Position numbers and translations under genes: made by a program. From the NCBI RefSeq assembly GCF_000380165.1, contig NZ_KB904635.1, positions 124,001-188,000 of the forward strand: a stretch of 64,000 nt of DNA. The letters are read 5' to 3'. This document shows, in pieces, positions 16,831 to 27,116 of the stretch (the stretch's first letter is position 1; the number at the start of each line of letters is the position of its first letter). The notes below the pieces were generated by a model. The model was given only the letters and a program-made list of their open reading frames with translations, did not search any database and had not been told where the DNA came from. This DNA is from Wenjunlia vitaminophila DSM 41686. Its GTDB lineage: Bacteria > Actinomycetota > Actinomycetes > Streptomycetales > Streptomycetaceae.

Positions 16831-17544
16831 CTACCCGGCGCCCACCAGCACCCCCGCCAAGGCACCGAGCAGCAGGAAGGGACCGAAGGGCAGCCCGGTA
16901 CGGCGGTGGGCCCGCCGCGCGGCGACCCGCGCGAAGCCCACCGCCGCACCCAGCAGGAAACCGGTGAACGCCCCCAGCACCAGCACGTCCCAGCCGTACC
17001 ACCCCAGGACGAGACCGACCGTCAACGACAGCTTGACGTCACCGAACCCCATGCCGTCGGGGCTCACCAGGAACAGCAGGAAGAGGAACGCCGTCAGGGC
17101 CACCGCGCCCAGCAACGCCCGCACCCACGCCCCCTCAGCCCCGGGCAGCAGCGCCGCACCCCCGAGCAGCGCGGCGGTCCCGCCCGCCATCGGCAGCGTC
17201 AACAGGTCGGGAAGCCGCCTGACCGCCAGGTCCACCGCCCCGAGCAACACCCCCACCGGGGCGAACAGGAGCCACACCGCCGTCTCCGGCCGCACCCCGC
17301 CCGCCACGGCGAGCAGCCCGCACACCACCGCGGTGACCGTGCCGGTGAGCCACGCCCCGGGCCCGTACCGGGTGGCGCACCGGCGGCACCGGCTCAGCAG
17401 CGGCAACCGGTGCCCCTCCGGGCAGAGTTCACGCCACGGCTCCCCCGGGGCCACACTCAACCGGTAGGCCGGTCCCGGCAACAGCGCCCCCACCAGCCCG
17501 CCGTACCCGACGGCGACGACGACAAGCGGCAGGTTCAACGGCAC
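16831..17544 (-). CDS. Type IV prepilin peptidase (TadV/PilD family)
   Basis: The 237-residue membrane protease of the A24 family should process the Flp and TadE-type prepilins encoded to its right. The two catalytic aspartates are visible, in AVDLAVRRLPD and in the MGFGDVKL motif (GxGDxK-like). A cysteine cluster (ELCPEGH, RCRRCATR) near the N-terminus resembles the zinc-binding tetrad of larger PilD enzymes. About seven hydrophobic helices follow. The GTG at 17544 is preferred because GGGGGG lies 5 nt upstream; the frame is open to 17568. The adjacent DUF192 gene is divergent. Confidence 0.88.
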   Translation of the reverse strand: MPLNLPLVVVAVGYGGLVGALLPGPAYRLSVAPGEPWRELCPEGHRLPLLSRCRRCATRYGPGAWLTGTVTAVVCGLLAVAGGVRPETAVWLLFAPVGVLLGAVDLAVRRLPDLLTLPMAGGTAALLGGAALLPGAEGAWVRALLGAVALTAFLFLLFLVSPDGMGFGDVKLSLTVGLVLGWYGWDVLVLGAFTGFLLGAAVGFARVAARRAHRRTGLPFGPFLLLGALAGVLVGAG

Positions 17545-17590
17545 CTCAACCCCCCGGACCGGCACCACCCACCGACGAAGGAGGCAGGCG

Positions 17591-17970: not shown

Positions 17971-18576
17971 TCAGTCCTCGAGCTTGGGGAAGGTGATCTC
18001 CACCCGGCGGTTCTTCCGCCGCCCCTCCTCCGTGGAGTTGTCGGAGATGGGGTAGTCCTCGCCGAAGCCCCGCACGTCGTAGTTGACCTCCGGGCTGAGC
18101 AGGTCCTTCAGCACCTGGTGCACGGCCTCGGCGCGCTTCTGGGACAGCACGTCCCCGTGGCCTTCGCTGCCGAGGTCGTCGGTGAAGCCGAAGATCCGGA
18201 CGTAGTGCGTCTCCTGGTCGTCTATCTCGTCGGCGATGGTCCGGATTCGGCCCCGCGCGGTCGGGGACAGCTCCGCGCTGTCCCTGCCGAACAGCACCTC
18301 CGCCTGGAGGGCGAACGTCACGTTCTCGTTGGTCTCCTCGCGACGCTCCTCTCCCTTGCCGTCCTCCACCACCGTCTTGATGTCGAGCACCTTGGGCTCC
18401 GCCAACTCCGCTCCCTCAGCGAGCAGGAGCTGCGGGTCGTTCGCGTCGATCTCCACGGGGGCGGACGGGGTGCCGGTCGGGTCCGGCCCCTCCGCGTGTC
18501 CTGTCGGCGCACCGACGAACACCAGGCCCGTGGCGAGCGCGGCCGTGGCCGCCAGCCGGAACGGTCTGAGCTGCAT
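17971..18576 (-). CDS. Secreted OmpA/MotB-like domain protein
   Basis: The 201-residue product has a Sec signal (RPFRLAATAALATGLVFVGA) and a C-terminal OmpA-like peptidoglycan-binding domain. The domain starts near FALQAEVLFGRDSAELS and has the GFTDDLGSEGHGDVLSQKRAEAV core and the terminal GRRKNRRVEITF, the usual D/R peptidoglycan contact segment. The ATG at 18576 is chosen over GTG 18588 because GAGGG then has proper spacing. It closes the leftward pilus operon and starts 8 bp after the lipoprotein gene. In a cell without an outer membrane it probably anchors or positions the pilus at the wall, which is inference. Confidence 0.88.
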   Translation of the reverse strand: MQLRPFRLAATAALATGLVFVGAPTGHAEGPDPTGTPSAPVEIDANDPQLLLAEGAELAEPKVLDIKTVVEDGKGEERREETNENVTFALQAEVLFGRDSAELSPTARGRIRTIADEIDDQETHYVRIFGFTDDLGSEGHGDVLSQKRAEAVHQVLKDLLSPEVNYDVRGFGEDYPISDNSTEEGRRKNRRVEITFPKLED

Positions 18577-18584
18577 GGGCACCC

Positions 18585-19181
18585 TCACCCCGAAATCTTG
18601 ATCTTGGCGGGCGGCATGGTCGGGAGCTGGAACTCGACGTCGGTCACGTCCTCGGCGGGAGCGGGGAACTGGGCGTAGATGGGGCGGGTCTCATCGGGCT
18701 TGACGTCACTCAGTTGCATGGTGCACAGGCACATGCCCTCGGTGTCCCGCAACACGTAGTAGCGCTTCTTGGCCTCGGGGTCCACCAGGACCGCGCCGGC
18801 CACCGAGTACCCCGACTTCTGCACTTCCTGTTCGGTCCCCACCCACTGGGTGGCGTCGAAGATCTCGTCGCCGGTGTTGGTGATCTCGCCCTTGACGGTG
18901 ACGAAGCCGCCGGCGTCCCGGGTCGCCTCCGTGATGGCCAGCACCACTCCCTTCTCCCCCTTGACCTCTGCCAGCGTCTGGGCCGGCGCCGGTTCCTCCT
19001 TCGGTTTCGAGGAACTGGTTGACACGTCGGATCCCTGGGTGTTCGACGCCTTCGGGTCCGCCTTGTCGGCCTCCTTGTCACCGTTGTCCCCGCCACAACC
19101 GGCCACGGCGAACGACAGGCCGATGGCCAGGGTGGCAGCGGCCAGCCGGACCCGAACCTGCGTTCTGCGCTGGGTGGTCAT
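18585..19181 (-). CDS. Lipoprotein with DUF4352-like domain
   Basis: The 198-residue product has a lipoprotein signal with lipobox VAGC (Cys 29), a Ser/Lys/Pro-rich linker and a beta-rich C-terminal domain (VTVKGEITNTGDEIFDATQW) resembling the immunoglobulin-like DUF4352 fold. Two closely spaced Cys in GMCLCTMQL may form a disulfide or bind metal. It ends 8 bp before the OmpA-like gene and follows the TadG-like gene, so it is probably the lipid-anchored partner of that protein in the pilus locus. The exact function is unknown. Confidence 0.75.
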   Translation of the reverse strand: MTTQRRTQVRVRLAAATLAIGLSFAVAGCGGDNGDKEADKADPKASNTQGSDVSTSSSKPKEEPAPAQTLAEVKGEKGVVLAITEATRDAGGFVTVKGEITNTGDEIFDATQWVGTEQEVQKSGYSVAGAVLVDPEAKKRYYVLRDTEGMCLCTMQLSDVKPDETRPIYAQFPAPAEDVTDVEFQLPTMPPAKIKISG

Positions 19182-19215: not shown

Positions 19216-19887
19216 TCACTTGGTGAGCCGGATCACGAAGAGATCCCCGAGGTCCAGGTCAAGCTCCGGGTCCCCCGGGTCCAGGGACAGTCCGCCCTCG
19301 TCGCAGTCGAACGTCACCGGTCCCGGTTCCTCCTCGCTGTCACCCTCGTCCTCGTCCTCTTCGTCGGCCGGAGAACTGGGGTCACCGTCAGGCTCCTCGG
19401 TCGGGTCCTCCTGTCGGGGACTCAGCGCGCAGCGGGGCTCGATGACGGCCGTTGCGGTGGCCACCGCGTGCTTGTCCTCGGTGCCGTCGATCACCGAATC
19501 GCCGATGCTGTCCTCGGACCTCACATCAACCCGGTAGCCCGCGGGATCATGTACCCGGACGCATTCCTGTACCCGGGCCCCGTTGCGCTCGGCGTAGCTG
19601 GACGCGGCGGCGCAGTGACCGGAGCGGAGCTCCTTGCCGTCCAGCAGGTCCTGGATCAGCTCGAGGTCGCCCGCGCGCAGGGCGTCGAGGAACTGGGGGC
19701 CCATCCCGTCCCGGGCGTCCTTGGCCGCACCCAAGGCCGCCGCGTCGGCCGCCGTCTGGGTGCCGTTGCGCGAGTCCTCGGCCTGTCCCACGGCGAAGAA
19801 GGCCAGCGCGACGAAGAGCAGGCCGACCCCCGCCATCAGGTGGAGCGGGATGGTCTGCCCGTCGTCACGTCGGAGACGTCGGATCAC
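19216..19887 (-). CDS. TadE/TadG-like pilus assembly protein
   Basis: The 223-residue product begins with a class III prepilin-like N-terminus (RRDDGQTIPLHLMAGVGLLFVALAFF) and a single membrane helix, followed by the TAADAAALGAAKDARDG segment typical of Flp pilus-assembly TadG-like proteins. The C-terminal half is very acidic (DEEDEDEGDSEEEPG), a feature I do not know from the family. The GTG start overlaps the flp stop (GTGA), so the two are translationally coupled. Confidence 0.85.
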   Translation of the reverse strand: MIRRLRRDDGQTIPLHLMAGVGLLFVALAFFAVGQAEDSRNGTQTAADAAALGAAKDARDGMGPQFLDALRAGDLELIQDLLDGKELRSGHCAAASSYAERNGARVQECVRVHDPAGYRVDVRSEDSIGDSVIDGTEDKHAVATATAVIEPRCALSPRQEDPTEEPDGDPSSPADEEDEDEGDSEEEPGPVTFDCDEGGLSLDPGDPELDLDLGDLFVIRLTK

Positions 19888-20120
19888 GAATCACCGATGA
19901 CGTCGTTGATCGCGCCGGTGATTCCATTCTTGATCTTGTTACCGATGTCCGTGCCGTTCAGCGCGAGGATGATCGCCGCGACGATCACCGCGATCCCCAG
20001 ATACTCAATCGCTGTCTGTCCCCTGTCTCCCCGTCCTGACCGTGTCGCCGCGACACGGTCAACCGCCCAGTCGCGCACGGCGATCCGTGCCGCGACCGCT
20101 GCCTTGATCACGCGGTCCAT
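19884..20120 (-). CDS. flp: Flp-type prepilin (major pilin candidate)
   Basis: The 78-residue product has the Flp signature: a hydrophilic leader ending in RGDRG, then QTAIEYLGIAVIVAAIILAL with Glu at +5 and Tyr at +6, then a short tail. The prepilin peptidase at 16831-17544 should cut between Gly and Gln. The leader, about 48 residues, is longer than in most Flp pilins. GAGGAGG lies 10 nt before the ATG. About 100 bp separate it from tadC, so it may have its own promoter and be made in larger amounts. Confidence 0.9.
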   Translation of the reverse strand: MDRVIKAAVAARIAVRDWAVDRVAATRSGRGDRGQTAIEYLGIAVIVAAIILALNGTDIGNKIKNGITGAINDVIGDS

Positions 20121-20223
20121 AGTCGCGCCCCCTCCTCGGTTCTCGTCGCTATGCACAAGGTAGAGCCGAATGCGATTTCCGCCAGTGGGCATCGGAGGAC
20201 GCCTTCCCCCCGCGGCGGTTGCC

Positions 20224-21111
20224 CTATCCGTCAAGGAATGCGTCCATGTCGATGTCGGAACCCAACAGCAGGCTGGTGACCAGCAGGATCAGCGTGGCCG
20301 GGACCATGAGCATGGTCACCACACCGGTGGCGCGGGGCACCGTGCGGGCCGCCTTCCTGCGGGCGTTCTGGGCGTCGGCGCGGCGCATGTCCTGGGCGAT
20401 CTGCATCAGCGTCTCCGCGATGGGGGCACCGAGGTCCTCGCCCTGCTGGAGGGCCGTGACGAACTGGCCCACCTGCTCGGAGTCGTTGCGGCGACGGAGT
20501 TCCTCGAACGCCTGCCGGCGGCTCATGCCCATCTCCATCTGCCGCAGGCTGATCCGGATCTCGTCAGACCAGGGTCCCTGGTACATCGTGGACACCCGCT
20601 CGAGCGCCTGGCGGAAACCCAGTCCGGCGGTCACCACCACGGACAGCACGTCGAGGAAGTCCGGCAGGGTCCGCTCGATCTCCTCGCGACGGGCCCGCAC
20701 GGCCGCCCAGATGCCGACGTCCGCCCACCACCAGGCGAACGCCGCGCAGATCAGCGCGACCACGATCTGCCCGCGGACCAGGAAGACCAGGGTGGCGGTC
20801 CCGCCGAGGGCACCGTAGACCGCGCGGCGGGCGGCGTAGCGCTGGACGGTCAGCCCCCGGGGGTTGCCCGCGTGGTCGATGCGGTCCCTGGCCCTGGCCA
20901 CCCGGACCGGGCCCATCAGCCGTAGCACCAGGGGGGCGTAGCGCATGCCGAGGCGGTCCAGCAGGGATCCGACCGCGGTCGTGCGGGTGGAGCCGACCTC
21001 CAGCGCCAGGCTGAGGTCGCTGGGAAGCCGGGCGTCCCGTCGGTACAGGGCCACGCCGTAGGCGACGCCCAGTACGGACAGCGCCGTGACAGCGGCGAGC
21101 AACAGCGCCAT
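20224..21111 (-). CDS. tadC: Tad pilus inner-membrane platform protein TadC
   Basis: The 295-residue product is a type II secretion F-domain protein. The T2SSF core lies at about residues 150-275 (RTLPDFLDVLSVVVTAGLGFRQAL, then the ALQQGEDLGAPIAETL motif), flanked by membrane helices at the N-terminus, middle and C-terminus. With TadB it forms the platform on which the TadA ATPase works. It begins 1 bp after tadB ends. Confidence 0.9.
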   Translation of the reverse strand: MALLLAAVTALSVLGVAYGVALYRRDARLPSDLSLALEVGSTRTTAVGSLLDRLGMRYAPLVLRLMGPVRVARARDRIDHAGNPRGLTVQRYAARRAVYGALGGTATLVFLVRGQIVVALICAAFAWWWADVGIWAAVRARREEIERTLPDFLDVLSVVVTAGLGFRQALERVSTMYQGPWSDEIRISLRQMEMGMSRRQAFEELRRRNDSEQVGQFVTALQQGEDLGAPIAETLMQIAQDMRRADAQNARRKAARTVPRATGVVTMLMVPATLILLVTSLLLGSDIDMDAFLDG

Positions 21112-21112
21112 C

Positions 21113-22060
21113 TCAGACCTCGATGCGGGACATGCGGTGGATGAGGAAGAAGCCCAGCGCGTACAGGCCGAGGGAGACCAGCACGGCCACCCGGCCGATG
21201 CCGCCGCCGGTCATCTCGGCCAGCGCGCCGGGGGTGATCTGGTCGATCATCAGCAGGGCGCCGACGCCGATGACCGGGACCGCGTAGGCGGTGACCCGGA
21301 TCTGGGCGAGCTGGGTGCGCACCTCGCGCCGGGTCTCCTTGCGTTCCTCCAGCGTGTTGGTGAGGTTCCGCAGCGAGCCGACGAGTGAGCCGCCCGTGCG
21401 GGCGGACAGGACGAGGGTGGTCACCAGGACCGCGAGCTCCCGGGACGGCAGCCGGCGCTGGAGGTCGCCCAGCGCGTCGTTGAGCGAGTGGCCGACGGCC
21501 AGGGCGTTGGCCACCTTGGTCAGCTCCTCCCCGGCGGGGGCCGGCAGTTCCTCGGCGGCCATGGAGACGGCGGTGCGCAGCGCCAGGCCGGCCTGGGTGG
21601 CGTTGGCGAGTACCCGGGACAGCTCGGGGAGCTGGTTGATGAAGCGTTCGATCCGCAGTTGGCGGCGCCAGTTGAGGAAGGCGAACGAGGCCCAGACGCC
21701 CACCAGGCCGGCGATCGGGCCGAAGAACGGGGCGAGCAGGGCGTGTGCCAGGGCCCACAGTCCACCGACCACGCCCAGCATGGCCGCGGTGAACTCCCCC
21801 GGCGTCAGTCGAAGGCCGGTGGTGGCGATCCGCTGTTCCAGGCGCGGGCCGTACCTGCTGCGCCGGACGCGGGCGTCGAGCCGGGCGAACCGCTGGGGCC
21901 GTTCCGGGGGGGCCTCCTGGCCCCCCGCGGTGATCGCCAGCCGTTCCACCAGTGCCTGCCGCTGGGCCTGCCCGGCCGACCAGGTCAGCACCCCCCACAC
22001 GGCGAGGACGCAGGCCAGCAGCGTCACACCGAGGACGACGAGCGACGAGGTACCCCACAC
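21113..22060 (-). CDS. tadB: Tad pilus inner-membrane platform protein TadB
   Basis: The 315-residue product is the second T2SSF platform protein. It has an N-terminal helix, two central helices near residues 90-125, the F-domain signature FINQLPELSRVLANATQAGLALRTAV and VLVTTLVLSARTGGSLV, then two C-terminal helices. It starts 2 bp after the tadA stop and is followed directly by tadC, the usual tadABC order. Confidence 0.9.
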   Translation of the reverse strand: MWGTSSLVVLGVTLLACVLAVWGVLTWSAGQAQRQALVERLAITAGGQEAPPERPQRFARLDARVRRSRYGPRLEQRIATTGLRLTPGEFTAAMLGVVGGLWALAHALLAPFFGPIAGLVGVWASFAFLNWRRQLRIERFINQLPELSRVLANATQAGLALRTAVSMAAEELPAPAGEELTKVANALAVGHSLNDALGDLQRRLPSRELAVLVTTLVLSARTGGSLVGSLRNLTNTLEERKETRREVRTQLAQIRVTAYAVPVIGVGALLMIDQITPGALAEMTGGGIGRVAVLVSLGLYALGFFLIHRMSRIEV

Positions 22061-22062
22061 CG

Positions 22063-23397
<1,335 letters not shown>

Positions 23398-23404
23398 GGC
23401 CGCA

Positions 23405-23815
23405 TCACTCCTTGGGCAGGTGTGCGGTGCGGTGGACCGGGCCGAACCCGCCGATGCCCGGGATGACCGACGGGATGTCGATGCTGGCGGTGGCGGTCAC
23501 CGACTCCTCCCCCGTTTCGACGTCCACGGTGACGTCGTCCCGGAGCCAGTCGCTGACCGCGGCGGTTCCCGCGGCCTGCGGGGAGCGTCCCGGCACGTCC
23601 TGGGAGGCGGTGCGGGCGGCGGCCCTGGCCGCCGTTCCGGCCTGGGAGGCGGCGTGCGCGACGATGCCGAGTTGGATGCCGACCAGCGCGACCAGCAACA
23701 GCACCGGGATGGCCCCGAGGAGTTCGAGGGCCGCCTGACCACGGTCGTCGCGCGACCTGACCGACCGTCCCGGGGCGGACCGGTCCGGGGCGCCGACGCC
23801 GGTCCGGCTACCCAT
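23405..23815 (-). CDS. TadE-like pseudopilin
   Basis: The 136-residue product has a basic leader ending in RDDRG, then QAALELLGAIPVLLLVALVG, the TadE helix with Glu at +5, then a soluble domain with VSDWLRDDVTVDVE. The start ATG has AAGGAG about 8 nt upstream and overlaps the end of the cpaE-tadE gene by 8 bp, so coupling is likely. Two TadE modules lie in tandem here, one free and one fused. Confidence 0.88.
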   Translation of the reverse strand: MGSRTGVGAPDRSAPGRSVRSRDDRGQAALELLGAIPVLLLVALVGIQLGIVAHAASQAGTAARAAARTASQDVPGRSPQAAGTAAVSDWLRDDVTVDVETGEESVTATASIDIPSVIPGIGGFGPVHRTAHLPKE

Positions 23816-25412
23816 CGTCGCTCTCCTTCGCCGCGCCCGCGCTCGCGGAGAGCGTCAGCGGGAACGAGGCCACTCCGGGGAAGAGCGCGGGAACCCGGAG
23901 GTTGACCGACGCCGTGACCATCCCGTCCGACTCGGCGCAGGTGATGTCGGCGCCGTCCTGCCAGGCGCCCGGCAGGTCCTCGGTGCCGCCGCCGGCACAG
24001 GAGTGGCCGGTGGCGGCGGACCGTGCCGCCTTGTCCGCGGCGTTGCCGGCGAGGGTGAAGGTGTAGCCGATGAGGACGCACTGCCAGACCAGCGCGAGCA
24101 CCACCAGGATCGTCGGGACCATGCCGAGGAACTCGAGGCTGGCCTGCCCCCGGTCCCCGAACCTGCCGGGCCCGCGCTTCCTGCCGGAGCGGCCCCGGGC
24201 GTGCTGGCGCCCCGCGCGGCGCCCGGGGTCGCCCGGCTCCGCGGTCTGGAGCAGGTCGAGTTCGCCGGCGAGCGCCCACAGTGCCTGCTTGACCGTGGAG
24301 CGCGCGTCGAGGTCCTGCAACCGGCCGGCGTCCACGAACGGTTGGAGTTCCCGGTAGGCCGCCGGGATCACCGTCCTGGCGCCGCGGGTGCCGGTGATCC
24401 GTTGCACCAGGACCGGCTGGATCTCGGTCCCGCGGGTGTGCCGGTTGAGGACCACGACGGTGTCCTCCGCCTTGCGCACCTGGAGGCGGTCCCACAGGCG
24501 CACCATCCGCTTGGCGGCCCGCACCGCGACCACGTCGGGGGTGGTCAGCAGGACGGCGGTGTCGGCGAGTTCCACGGCGACGGCGTTGGCCCCGTTCACC
24601 TGGCTGCCGCAGTCCACCACCACCACGTCGAAACGGGAGCGCAGGGCGGTGAGCACCTGACGGGCCGCGCGGTCGGTGACCTCCTCGGCGCGCTCGCCCT
24701 CGGCGGGGGCGAGCAGCAGGGCGAGCCCCGTGGGGTGGTCGAACATCGCCTCCTGGAGCACCCGGGGGGAGATGTCGTTGATGTCGGCGAGGTCGGCGAG
24801 GGAACGCCGGAACTGCACCTCGAGGTAGGACGCCAGGTCCCCGGACTGGAGGTCCATGTCGACCAGCGCGGTGGCCCGGCCGGCGGCGCGGGCGGCCAGC
24901 GCGAGTTCGATGGCGGCGACGGTGCTGCCGACCCCGCCCTTGGCCCCGGCGACCGTGACCAGGGTCCCGGTCCTGCCCGACGGGGCCTCGGGGGCGGGGG
25001 CCAGGTGTCGGCGCACCCCGGTCGCCCAGGCGGCGGCGGTCTGCACCCGCATGGCCAGTTCGTCGTGGGACAGCGGCAACCCGACCACGCCGCGGGCGCC
25101 GACGTCCATGGCCGCCGCGTACAGGTCCGGGTTCGGGGACTGGGACATCAGCACCACCCCGACCGCGGGGAACCGCATGGCGACCTCCCGGACCAGCTCG
25201 AACGCCGGCATCGGGCCGATCCGCTCGTGGACCAGGACCACCTCGGGCAGCCCGTCCACCGACTCGTCGGCGAGCCGGTCCAGGGTGGTGAGGAGCGCCG
25301 CGGAGTCGGCCGCGACCGGCGCCAGCTCCGCCCCGGGGACCTGGTTCAGCACCGTGGCGAGGGCCCGCGCGGTGTCGGTGTCGCCGATCCCACAGAGCAC
25401 ACGAATGATCAC
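23808..25412 (-). CDS. CpaE/TadZ-like MinD-family ATPase fused to a TadE pseudopilin
   Basis: The 534-residue product has a response-regulator-like N-terminal domain (about 1-130) and a MinD/ParA-type ATPase domain with deviant Walker A GAKGGVGST at 156-164 and VVVDCGSQ as Walker B region. After a basic linker (ARGRSGRKRGPGRFGDRG) comes a complete TadE module: QASLEFLGMVPTILVVLALV from residue 423, then an extracellular-type domain with a Cys pair. The frame is continuous, and between the ATPase and the TadE leader I find no ATG, GTG or TTG codon that could start a separate TadE, so the fusion looks genuine. The G-Q junction is a prepilin-peptidase site, so cleavage could release the ATPase. 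The GTG start follows the cpaB stop by 7 bp. Confidence 0.85.
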   Translation of the reverse strand: MIIRVLCGIGDTDTARALATVLNQVPGAELAPVAADSAALLTTLDRLADESVDGLPEVVLVHERIGPMPAFELVREVAMRFPAVGVVLMSQSPNPDLYAAAMDVGARGVVGLPLSHDELAMRVQTAAAWATGVRRHLAPAPEAPSGRTGTLVTVAGAKGGVGSTVAAIELALAARAAGRATALVDMDLQSGDLASYLEVQFRRSLADLADINDISPRVLQEAMFDHPTGLALLLAPAEGERAEEVTDRAARQVLTALRSRFDVVVVDCGSQVNGANAVAVELADTAVLLTTPDVVAVRAAKRMVRLWDRLQVRKAEDTVVVLNRHTRGTEIQPVLVQRITGTRGARTVIPAAYRELQPFVDAGRLQDLDARSTVKQALWALAGELDLLQTAEPGDPGRRAGRQHARGRSGRKRGPGRFGDRGQASLEFLGMVPTILVVLALVWQCVLIGYTFTLAGNAADKAARSAATGHSCAGGGTEDLPGAWQDGADITCAESDGMVTASVNLRVPALFPGVASFPLTLSASAGAAKESDDG

Positions 25413-25419
25413 GCGCGTC

Positions 25420-26133
25420 TCACCGTTCCCGGTCCTCGTCGAGGGTGTAGGTGCGCTCACCGGGGGTGAGCGCCGTCTCGTCGCCCGGCGCAACCAGGGC
25501 GAGCCGCACGTGGGTGGCGAACGACTCGGCGTAGGCGAGGCGTTGCGCGTCGCTCGGGGAGAGCGCGAACGTGATCGGCACGGCCTCGTCACCGGAGCCG
25601 TCGTCGTCCCGGTCGGCGTCCAGCACCTCCAGTTCGCCGACGTCGATGACCTTGGCCGCGGAGACGATGATCTGCGAGGAGGCGGGCGACTTGCCGCGGT
25701 CCTCGGCTTCGAACGTGGCGAAGATGTCCACCCGGGCCCCGGGGTCGATCTTCCCGGCCACCCCCGTGGCGGCGTCGATCATGATGGCGATCTCCCGCTG
25801 CCCCGGCTCCAGGGCCGGGCGGTCCACGGCCATCTCCCGCTGGAGGAGCGAGCCCTCGTGCAGCGCGATGGGGGCGATCTTGTCGTCGATCTCGTCGAGG
25901 TCCCGCACCGCGGTGTCGGGGAGCCAGCGCTCGGGCACCTTCACCCGGCGGAACTGGCTGGGGGTCAGCTCCTGGTAGGCGGGGATGTCCTGCTTGAGCT
26001 CGTACGCGGTGGTCTCCTGGCCGACCTTGGACTCCACGTCGTTGACGACCGCGAGCACGCCCGCGAAGGCGGCGACGGCGCAGACGACGGAGAGGACGAT
26101 CAGGATGACGCCGCGCCGTTGACGTGAGTTCAT
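25420..26133 (-). CDS. cpaB: Flp pilus assembly protein CpaB/RcpC (SAF domain)
   Basis: The 237-residue product has an N-terminal membrane anchor (RRGVILIVLSVVCAVAAFAG), a SAF domain (YQELTPSQFRRVKVPERWLP) and the RcpC/CpaB C-terminal domain (AIMIDAATGVAGKIDPGARVD). CpaB proteins sit outside the membrane and stabilise pilus assembly. Its ATG overlaps the stop of the upstream gene as ATGA, which favours this start although the Shine-Dalgarno sequence is weak. Confidence 0.88.
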   Translation of the reverse strand: MNSRQRRGVILIVLSVVCAVAAFAGVLAVVNDVESKVGQETTAYELKQDIPAYQELTPSQFRRVKVPERWLPDTAVRDLDEIDDKIAPIALHEGSLLQREMAVDRPALEPGQREIAIMIDAATGVAGKIDPGARVDIFATFEAEDRGKSPASSQIIVSAAKVIDVGELEVLDADRDDDGSGDEAVPITFALSPSDAQRLAYAESFATHVRLALVAPGDETALTPGERTYTLDEDRER

Positions 26134-27116
26134 CGACGTGTGGGACCAATCTGGTATCTGCTGTCGGTCTCGGTTCGGCTGACGGTCCCGGCTCCTGCCC
26201 CGGGCCCGGGACGCCGTGAGGTGCCCGCCGGGGTGGCGGCGGACCCCGGGGTGACGGCGGCGGGGCGGGTGGGTGCCGTGGGTTCGACGCGGGCGGAGCA
26301 GAACAGGCACCGGTCGCCGATGGTCTCCAGTCCGCACCAGCCGCAGGCGTCGCGGCGGACGGAACGGACGAGTTGGTGGAGCACCGCCACGTCGGGGATG
26401 TACGCGGCGAACTCGACCAGCTTCTGGTTGCCCCACCACTGGGTGGACGCCGCGGGCAGCGGCACCTGGCACACCCGCTGGCACCGCCACTGACGGGCCA
26501 GGTCACCGCTGACCCAGTCGGACGCCAACCCGTGCTCCCCCACGGCGAGGTGGGTGGCGAAGTCGGGCCCGGGGAGCCTGGCGGAGCCGGTCAGCTCCGC
26601 CAGGTGCGCCTGGGGGTTGGCGACCACGGCGAACTGGGACCCGGGGACCCAGGAGCGCAGGTGTGACCTGAGGTTCACCTCGACCCGGTCGAGCCGGGCG
26701 ATGCTGTTGAGCACGGCTCCGGTGTGCAGGTAGTAGGGCAGCAGCCGGGCGGCCCCGGCGAGCACCCCGGGTGCGAGGTCGGTGCCGCACAGCAGGGTGA
26801 GCTGACGGGCCAGCAGCGCGGCGGCCAGCGGCGGGAGATCGACGTCCACCAGCGCGATCCGGTCGCTCTCCAGGACCGCGCGGACCGTGTGCAGCCGGCG
26901 GCGCTCCTGCGCCGGCAGCGTGGCCGGAACGAGCGCCACTAAGTACCCGAAGCTGTCCAGCGCCGCGCTGACTCTGGTCAACTGTTCGTCGAGCGGATGT
27001 GACCGCTCCGTTGCCGCCCGGTCGTCGGGACGGTGCAGGACCACGGCGGCGGGCGCTTGCCCCTCCGGCACCGGAAGGATCAGGTCCGCGCTGGTCACGG
27101 CTATGGCAGTTGGCAC
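26130..27116 (-). CDS. Conserved tad-locus protein of unknown function with a CxxC...CxxC end
   Basis: I do not recognise a family for this 328-residue protein. It is the first gene of the leftward pilus operon and overlaps cpaB by 4 bp. It has no signal peptide. The N-terminal 170 residues are alpha/beta-like with a VALVDVDLPPLAAALLARQL stretch, the middle is Trp-rich (STQWWGNQKLVEF), and a zinc-ribbon-like motif (CGWCGLETIGDRCLFC) precedes a disordered Pro/Ala tail. Codon 59 (26942-26940) is TTA. A regulatory or ATPase-like role in pilus assembly is possible but unproven. Its promoter should lie in the 170-bp gap to its right. Confidence 0.7.
   Translation of the reverse strand: MPTAIAVTSADLILPVPEGQAPAAVVLHRPDDRAATERSHPLDEQLTRVSAALDSFGYLVALVPATLPAQERRRLHTVRAVLESDRIALVDVDLPPLAAALLARQLTLLCGTDLAPGVLAGAARLLPYYLHTGAVLNSIARLDRVEVNLRSHLRSWVPGSQFAVVANPQAHLAELTGSARLPGPDFATHLAVGEHGLASDWVSGDLARQWRCQRVCQVPLPAASTQWWGNQKLVEFAAYIPDVAVLHQLVRSVRRDACGWCGLETIGDRCLFCSARVEPTAPTRPAAVTPGSAATPAGTSRRPGPGAGAGTVSRTETDSRYQIGPTRR

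Follow-up and report, generated by a model that had tools for sequence, protein, structure and literature searches.

The tad locus and its fused gene

The window, that is, the whole 64,000-nucleotide stretch of the Wenjunlia vitaminophila DSM 41686 genome analyzed here, carries a tad operon whose genes all lie on the minus strand. CpaB/RcpC (25420-26133, its ATG at 26133 read from the frame) is recognized by RcpC and SAF matches at 25420-26121 and by TIGR03177 above cut-off. Upstream of it, and overlapping its start by four bases, a further member of the operon encodes 328 residues (26130-27116) with a zinc-ribbon-like CGWC...CLFC near the C-terminus and gave no match in Pfam or NCBIfam. CpaB is followed by the gene under study (23808-25412), a separate gene for a second TadE (23405-23815; site DDRG^QAALEL after a 26-residue leader), the motor ATPase TadA/CpaF (22063-23397; T2SSE, E 4e-74) and the platform proteins TadB (21113-22060; T2SSF) and TadC (20224-21111; DUF5936 and T2SSF). 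Next come the Flp pilin (19884-20234; site GDRG^QTAIEY), with a Flp_Fap match under cut-off, and a TadG-like protein (19216-19887; PF13400), in which DDGQTIPLH stands where the other pilin-like proteins carry E at +5. After the tad genes and in the same direction, a lipoprotein-like and an OmpA-like gene (17971-19181) were named by eye from the sequence, and their products are possible pilus anchors in the Gram-positive wall.

The prepilin peptidase that the earlier note placed at 16831 is indeed encoded there (16831-17568), as the only Peptidase_A24 protein found in the genome; two candidate aspartates, D113 and D177 of GFGD, were located in its sequence and are presumably catalytic. The same genome holds a second tad locus (L225, G000:C79:32000-40500), where the ATPase and TadE are encoded separately, at a distance of several genes, and within which no peptidase gene was found. 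With one A24 peptidase in the genome, this enzyme must therefore serve both tad loci, if either is made.

The gene at 23808-25412 encodes 534 residues, from a GTG start at 25412 to a stop at 23808, in a single frame free of internal stops and open upstream as far as 25592. Reading these coordinates, correct in themselves, on the plus strand does not yield the gene. Residues 1-137 (25002-25412) form a pseudo-receiver domain according to the AlphaFold model (pLDDT about 90 across most residues), a weak Response_reg match and receiver structures retrieved by Foldseek. A MinD-like ATPase follows (residues 149-385; 24258-24968), identified in Pfam by AAA_31 (residues 151-313, E 8.5e-10) and ParA profiles, both above cut-off, and by MinD, FleN and ParA structures matched in sequence and, with Foldseek, in fold; the Foldseek matches included 3fkq, which we take to be TadZ of Eubacterium rectale. 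The Walker A motif of MinD is KGGVGKT, where the fusion has the deviant KGGVGST (residues 158-164; 24921-24941), of which K158, G159, G160, G162 and T164 are invariant in an alignment of 43 fused proteins (the window's own and those of 42 of the 52 named fused loci). A basic linker (residues 391-422; 24147-24242; 10 K/R and 3 D/E) then leads to a TadE minor pilin, whose mature part comprises residues 423-534 and the stop (23808-24146), the predicted cut falling between bases 24147 and 24146. In the AlphaFold model, built with 43 sequences (mean pLDDT 72), confidence is high on the receiver and on the long pilin helix 422-467, which is followed by strands, intermediate on the ATPase, dropping under 50 across a disordered linker region at residues 390-426. 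The TadE profile (PF07811) matched residues 422-464 at 18.8 bits (E 0.0018) in the whole-protein Pfam scan, under the curated 22.9, and the same stretch at 24.4 bits, above cut-off, when the whole genome was searched in six frames; among the window protein and 42 relatives, AAA_31 was matched in 43/43 and TadE in 42/43 at E <= 0.01.

CpaE/TadZ, and also actinobacterial Ssd, consist of a receiver-like domain and, after it, a MinD/ParA-type ATPase whose Walker A is deviant, and are encoded next to CpaB and TadA in tad operons. The gene in the window shares this arrangement, which together with the domain matches and the fold bears out the CpaE/TadZ-type ATPase proposed in the earlier note; the ATPase is not classed as Ssd, because its score against the Ssd model TIGR03815 (80.5 bits) is under the cut-off of 154.45. 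Unlike known CpaE/TadZ proteins, which end after the ATPase, the frame in the window continues into a pilin, so that the in-frame TadE module claimed on the same occasion stands as well, with one open frame and the match at residues 422-464. The PF07811 match, a class III site, a hydrophobic helix after it and a small extracytoplasmic part liken this module to TadE/TadF proteins matured by TadV, which is reported to be needed for the maturation of both (Tomich et al. 2006, as cited in PMC4322843). Where an ordinary TadE/TadF has a short leader peptide, the fusion has a leader of 422 residues that includes a folded ATPase.

The prepilin site, internal starts and the ATPase tail

At the junction lies DRG^QASLEF, with G422 as the -1 residue, and the D-R-G^Q context recurs in the window's second TadE and in Flp. 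An independent alignment of the 43 fused proteins shows no variation at D420, G422, E427 and P433, in agreement with the earlier description of an intact class III site at G-QASLE. A GxxxxE site ahead of a hydrophobic stretch was missing from 0/93 fused and 0/75 split loci; the search pattern itself required G and E, and 168/168 thus means that none failed and is no unbiased frequency.

The absence of an internal start before TadE was likewise confirmed. The ATG, GTG or TTG codons nearest the site correspond to residue 365, before it, and residue 431, within the pilin helix, and none occurs between residues 366 and 430, so that an internal start was rejected for the window. Across the 93 fused loci, the stretch from position 385 to the site has no in-frame start in 50 and a possible one in 43, from which internal initiation could yield free TadE in some cases.

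In Streptomycetaceae the ATPase tail is alike in both arrangements, with a median of 29 residues and a net charge of +6 in 80 fused loci, and of 31 residues and +6 in 65 split ones. Streptomyces CpaE tails (L006-L183), fused or split, show the motif DRG[SA][LIV]x[LF]RRR, which resembles the start of a pilin site lacking E+5 and may serve for docking or for membrane contact. This DRG[SA]-type basic motif is present in 40/44 fused and 32/44 sister split loci; the window's own clade lacks it, although the tail there is basic.

Distribution and history of the fused form

The search for the same architecture in other tad loci, suggested with the original observation, returned 168 distinct close loci, 93 of them fused and 75 with two adjacent genes. 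These came from the best 80 of 272 confirmed relatives, a set ordered by similarity to the fused query, hence biased toward fusions, and from the loci of 150 genomes of the family and 296 of the class. Three loci (L140, L148 and L160) were counted as fused on closer look, the automated junction count alone giving 91/167; one with a stop within the ATPase match (L182) was counted as split and excluded from the trees. In the even family sample, 88/150 genomes had a match and, once two weak matches (G005 and G030) were excluded, 47 of the 86 close ones were fused and 39 split, 13 of the 47 being judged from full-length or near-full-length stop-free matches. Fused forms also occur under four further family codes of the class (f17, f26, f40 and f42). 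No TadE extension was found in 40 distant CpaE loci (25-31% identity), the single flagged motif being an 8-residue tail end, and a search of the plasmid collection returned a single weak match at 30%. Split junctions consist of short gaps, 4-base start/stop overlaps, or a single in-frame stop followed by a start.

Fusion is specific to this junction. While CpaE and TadE form one ORF in 91/167 loci, no such state was found at CpaB-CpaE (0/164), TadE1-TadE2 (0/157), TadE2-TadA (0/154) or TadA-TadB (0/110), nor further downstream at TadB-TadC (0/78), TadC-Flp (0/20) or Flp-TadG (0/20). CpaE-TadE would be the sole junction among these with a cytoplasmic protein ahead of a prepilin site in the N-in orientation.

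The arrangement has also switched repeatedly. On a careful ATPase tree, built from 82/167 close and 12/40 distant rows, eight changes between fused and split were counted (8-9 in bootstraps), four of them forced by well-supported branches; by parsimony the number is eight whichever ingroup root is taken, with one founding fusion to be added where that root is fused. Repeated fusion from a split root is mildly preferred, with a log-likelihood of -26.4 (fission only, -30.9; equal rates, -30.0), although this comparison could be led astray by branch lengths, sampling, an uncertain topology or gene transfer. Such recurrent switching points to a fusion that two separate proteins can largely replace, rather than to a required regulatory device, its near-neutrality being inferred from the tree.

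Possible maturation of the fusion by the prepilin peptidase

Fusion of a tad gene pair is not in itself new, as TadB and TadC of Micrococcus luteus constitute a single ORF (PMC4322843) and TadB/TadC fission is discussed in PMC6668835; there, both partners are membrane platform domains, whereas the junction in the window is a prepilin-peptidase site. A CpaE/TadZ-TadE fusion did not appear among the titles and abstract openings searched, a scope that leaves out most subscription journals, in which it may be noted, and is unmentioned in the available parts of PMC4322843, PMC8467076, PMC3244431, PMC13170226, PMC6668835 and PMC9531140.

Since many relatives are fused and many carry neighboring genes instead, the peptidase probably cuts the two halves apart. 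We consider it fairly likely that the gene makes a precursor in which residues 1-422, the pseudo-receiver and CpaE/TadZ ATPase, stand in for the leader peptide of TadE (423-534). The ATPase would remain cytoplasmic while the hydrophobic helix of the pilin would enter the membrane N-in. A cut after G422 by the one prepilin peptidase of the genome would release an ATPase whose basic tail is like that of its stand-alone relatives, together with a mature TadE that has E+5 and whose N-terminus is free. Given the similarity of the ATPase tails in fused and split Streptomycetaceae, such cutting would nearly restore the two proteins of the split relatives. Fused and split genes would then be nearly interchangeable, and the junction could have switched repeatedly for this reason. 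The main effect would be synthesis in a 1:1 ratio and co-delivery of the minor pilin to CpaE's site by the motor, with the peptidase freeing TadE after the pair has reached one place. Usual pilin leaders are far shorter than a folded leader of 422 residues, which counts against cleavage. The co-occurrence of the peptidase was dropped as evidence: it is present in 59/59 genomes with the fusion and in 20/20 family genomes without a match, and is uninformative because it is found with or without the fusion.

The same architecture could instead serve as a regulated tether, the uncut fusion keeping the ATPase at the membrane until a timed cleavage releases it; the coupling of localization to assembly that the earlier note proposed would be possible in this way, though the results do not support it. 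PMC13170226 models the CpaE dimers of Caulobacter around the motor CpaF. It also proposes a C-terminal amphipathic helix as CpaE's route to the membrane, the very end to which TadE is added in the fusion, and models minor pilins at the platform ahead of extension; these last two points would suit a tether, as would the basic and disordered linker. Nevertheless, the fusion is missing from 39/86 family genomes that have a close match, and its state changed about eight times on the ATPase tree, so that such coupling is no general need, and we regard this explanation as unlikely. Less probable still is a permanent anchor, in which the pilin part stays uncut and merely holds the ATPase in the membrane while the second TadE acts as the working pilin. 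The complete second TadE gene directly after the fusion fits this arrangement, and a permanent anchor could replace the short basic tail of split CpaE relatives; yet the fused forms conserve G(-1), E(+5), P(+11) and the extracytoplasmic part, none of which a plain anchor would need, and E+5 in particular would have no obvious use in one. Moreover, a second TadE accompanies the free first one in most split relatives, and the two are thus not simply redundant.

That there is no true fusion, either through a sequencing frameshift or through internal initiation giving two proteins, is largely refuted and the least probable explanation of all. Split relatives are common and, as reported above, nearly half of the fused loci have a possible internal start, both of which would favor it; the other 50, and the window, have none, and the fusion recurs across independent assemblies. 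The earlier note had named separate-gene relatives, with a start codon lost here by error, as one finding that would undo the fusion: such relatives do exist (75/168 close loci), but no start was lost by error, the fusion being clade-wide. A sequencing artefact was rejected since a congener shares the fusion at 75% identity (the named W. tyrosinilytica locus, L004, at 74%) and since whole clades of up to 44 distinct loci are fused.

Cleavage of a precursor therefore remains our preferred reading. A more elaborate form of it makes the prepilin peptidase a polyprotein protease: the positioning ATPase would be the leader of a priming minor pilin, one pilin would be loaded per CpaE subunit around the motor, cleavage would license pilus initiation, and the fusion would have arisen several times independently because cleavage silences it. 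We consider this form rather unlikely. If the precursor is cut as we infer, it would offer a clear example of a bacterial polyprotein that is resolved by a pilin peptidase and has a folded enzyme as its leader. Through the fusion, a minor pilin is joined physically and at 1:1 to the CpaE/TadZ hub, a contact otherwise hard to see, and the fused and split sister clades of Streptomyces are natural experiments on the need for joint synthesis or placement of the two halves.
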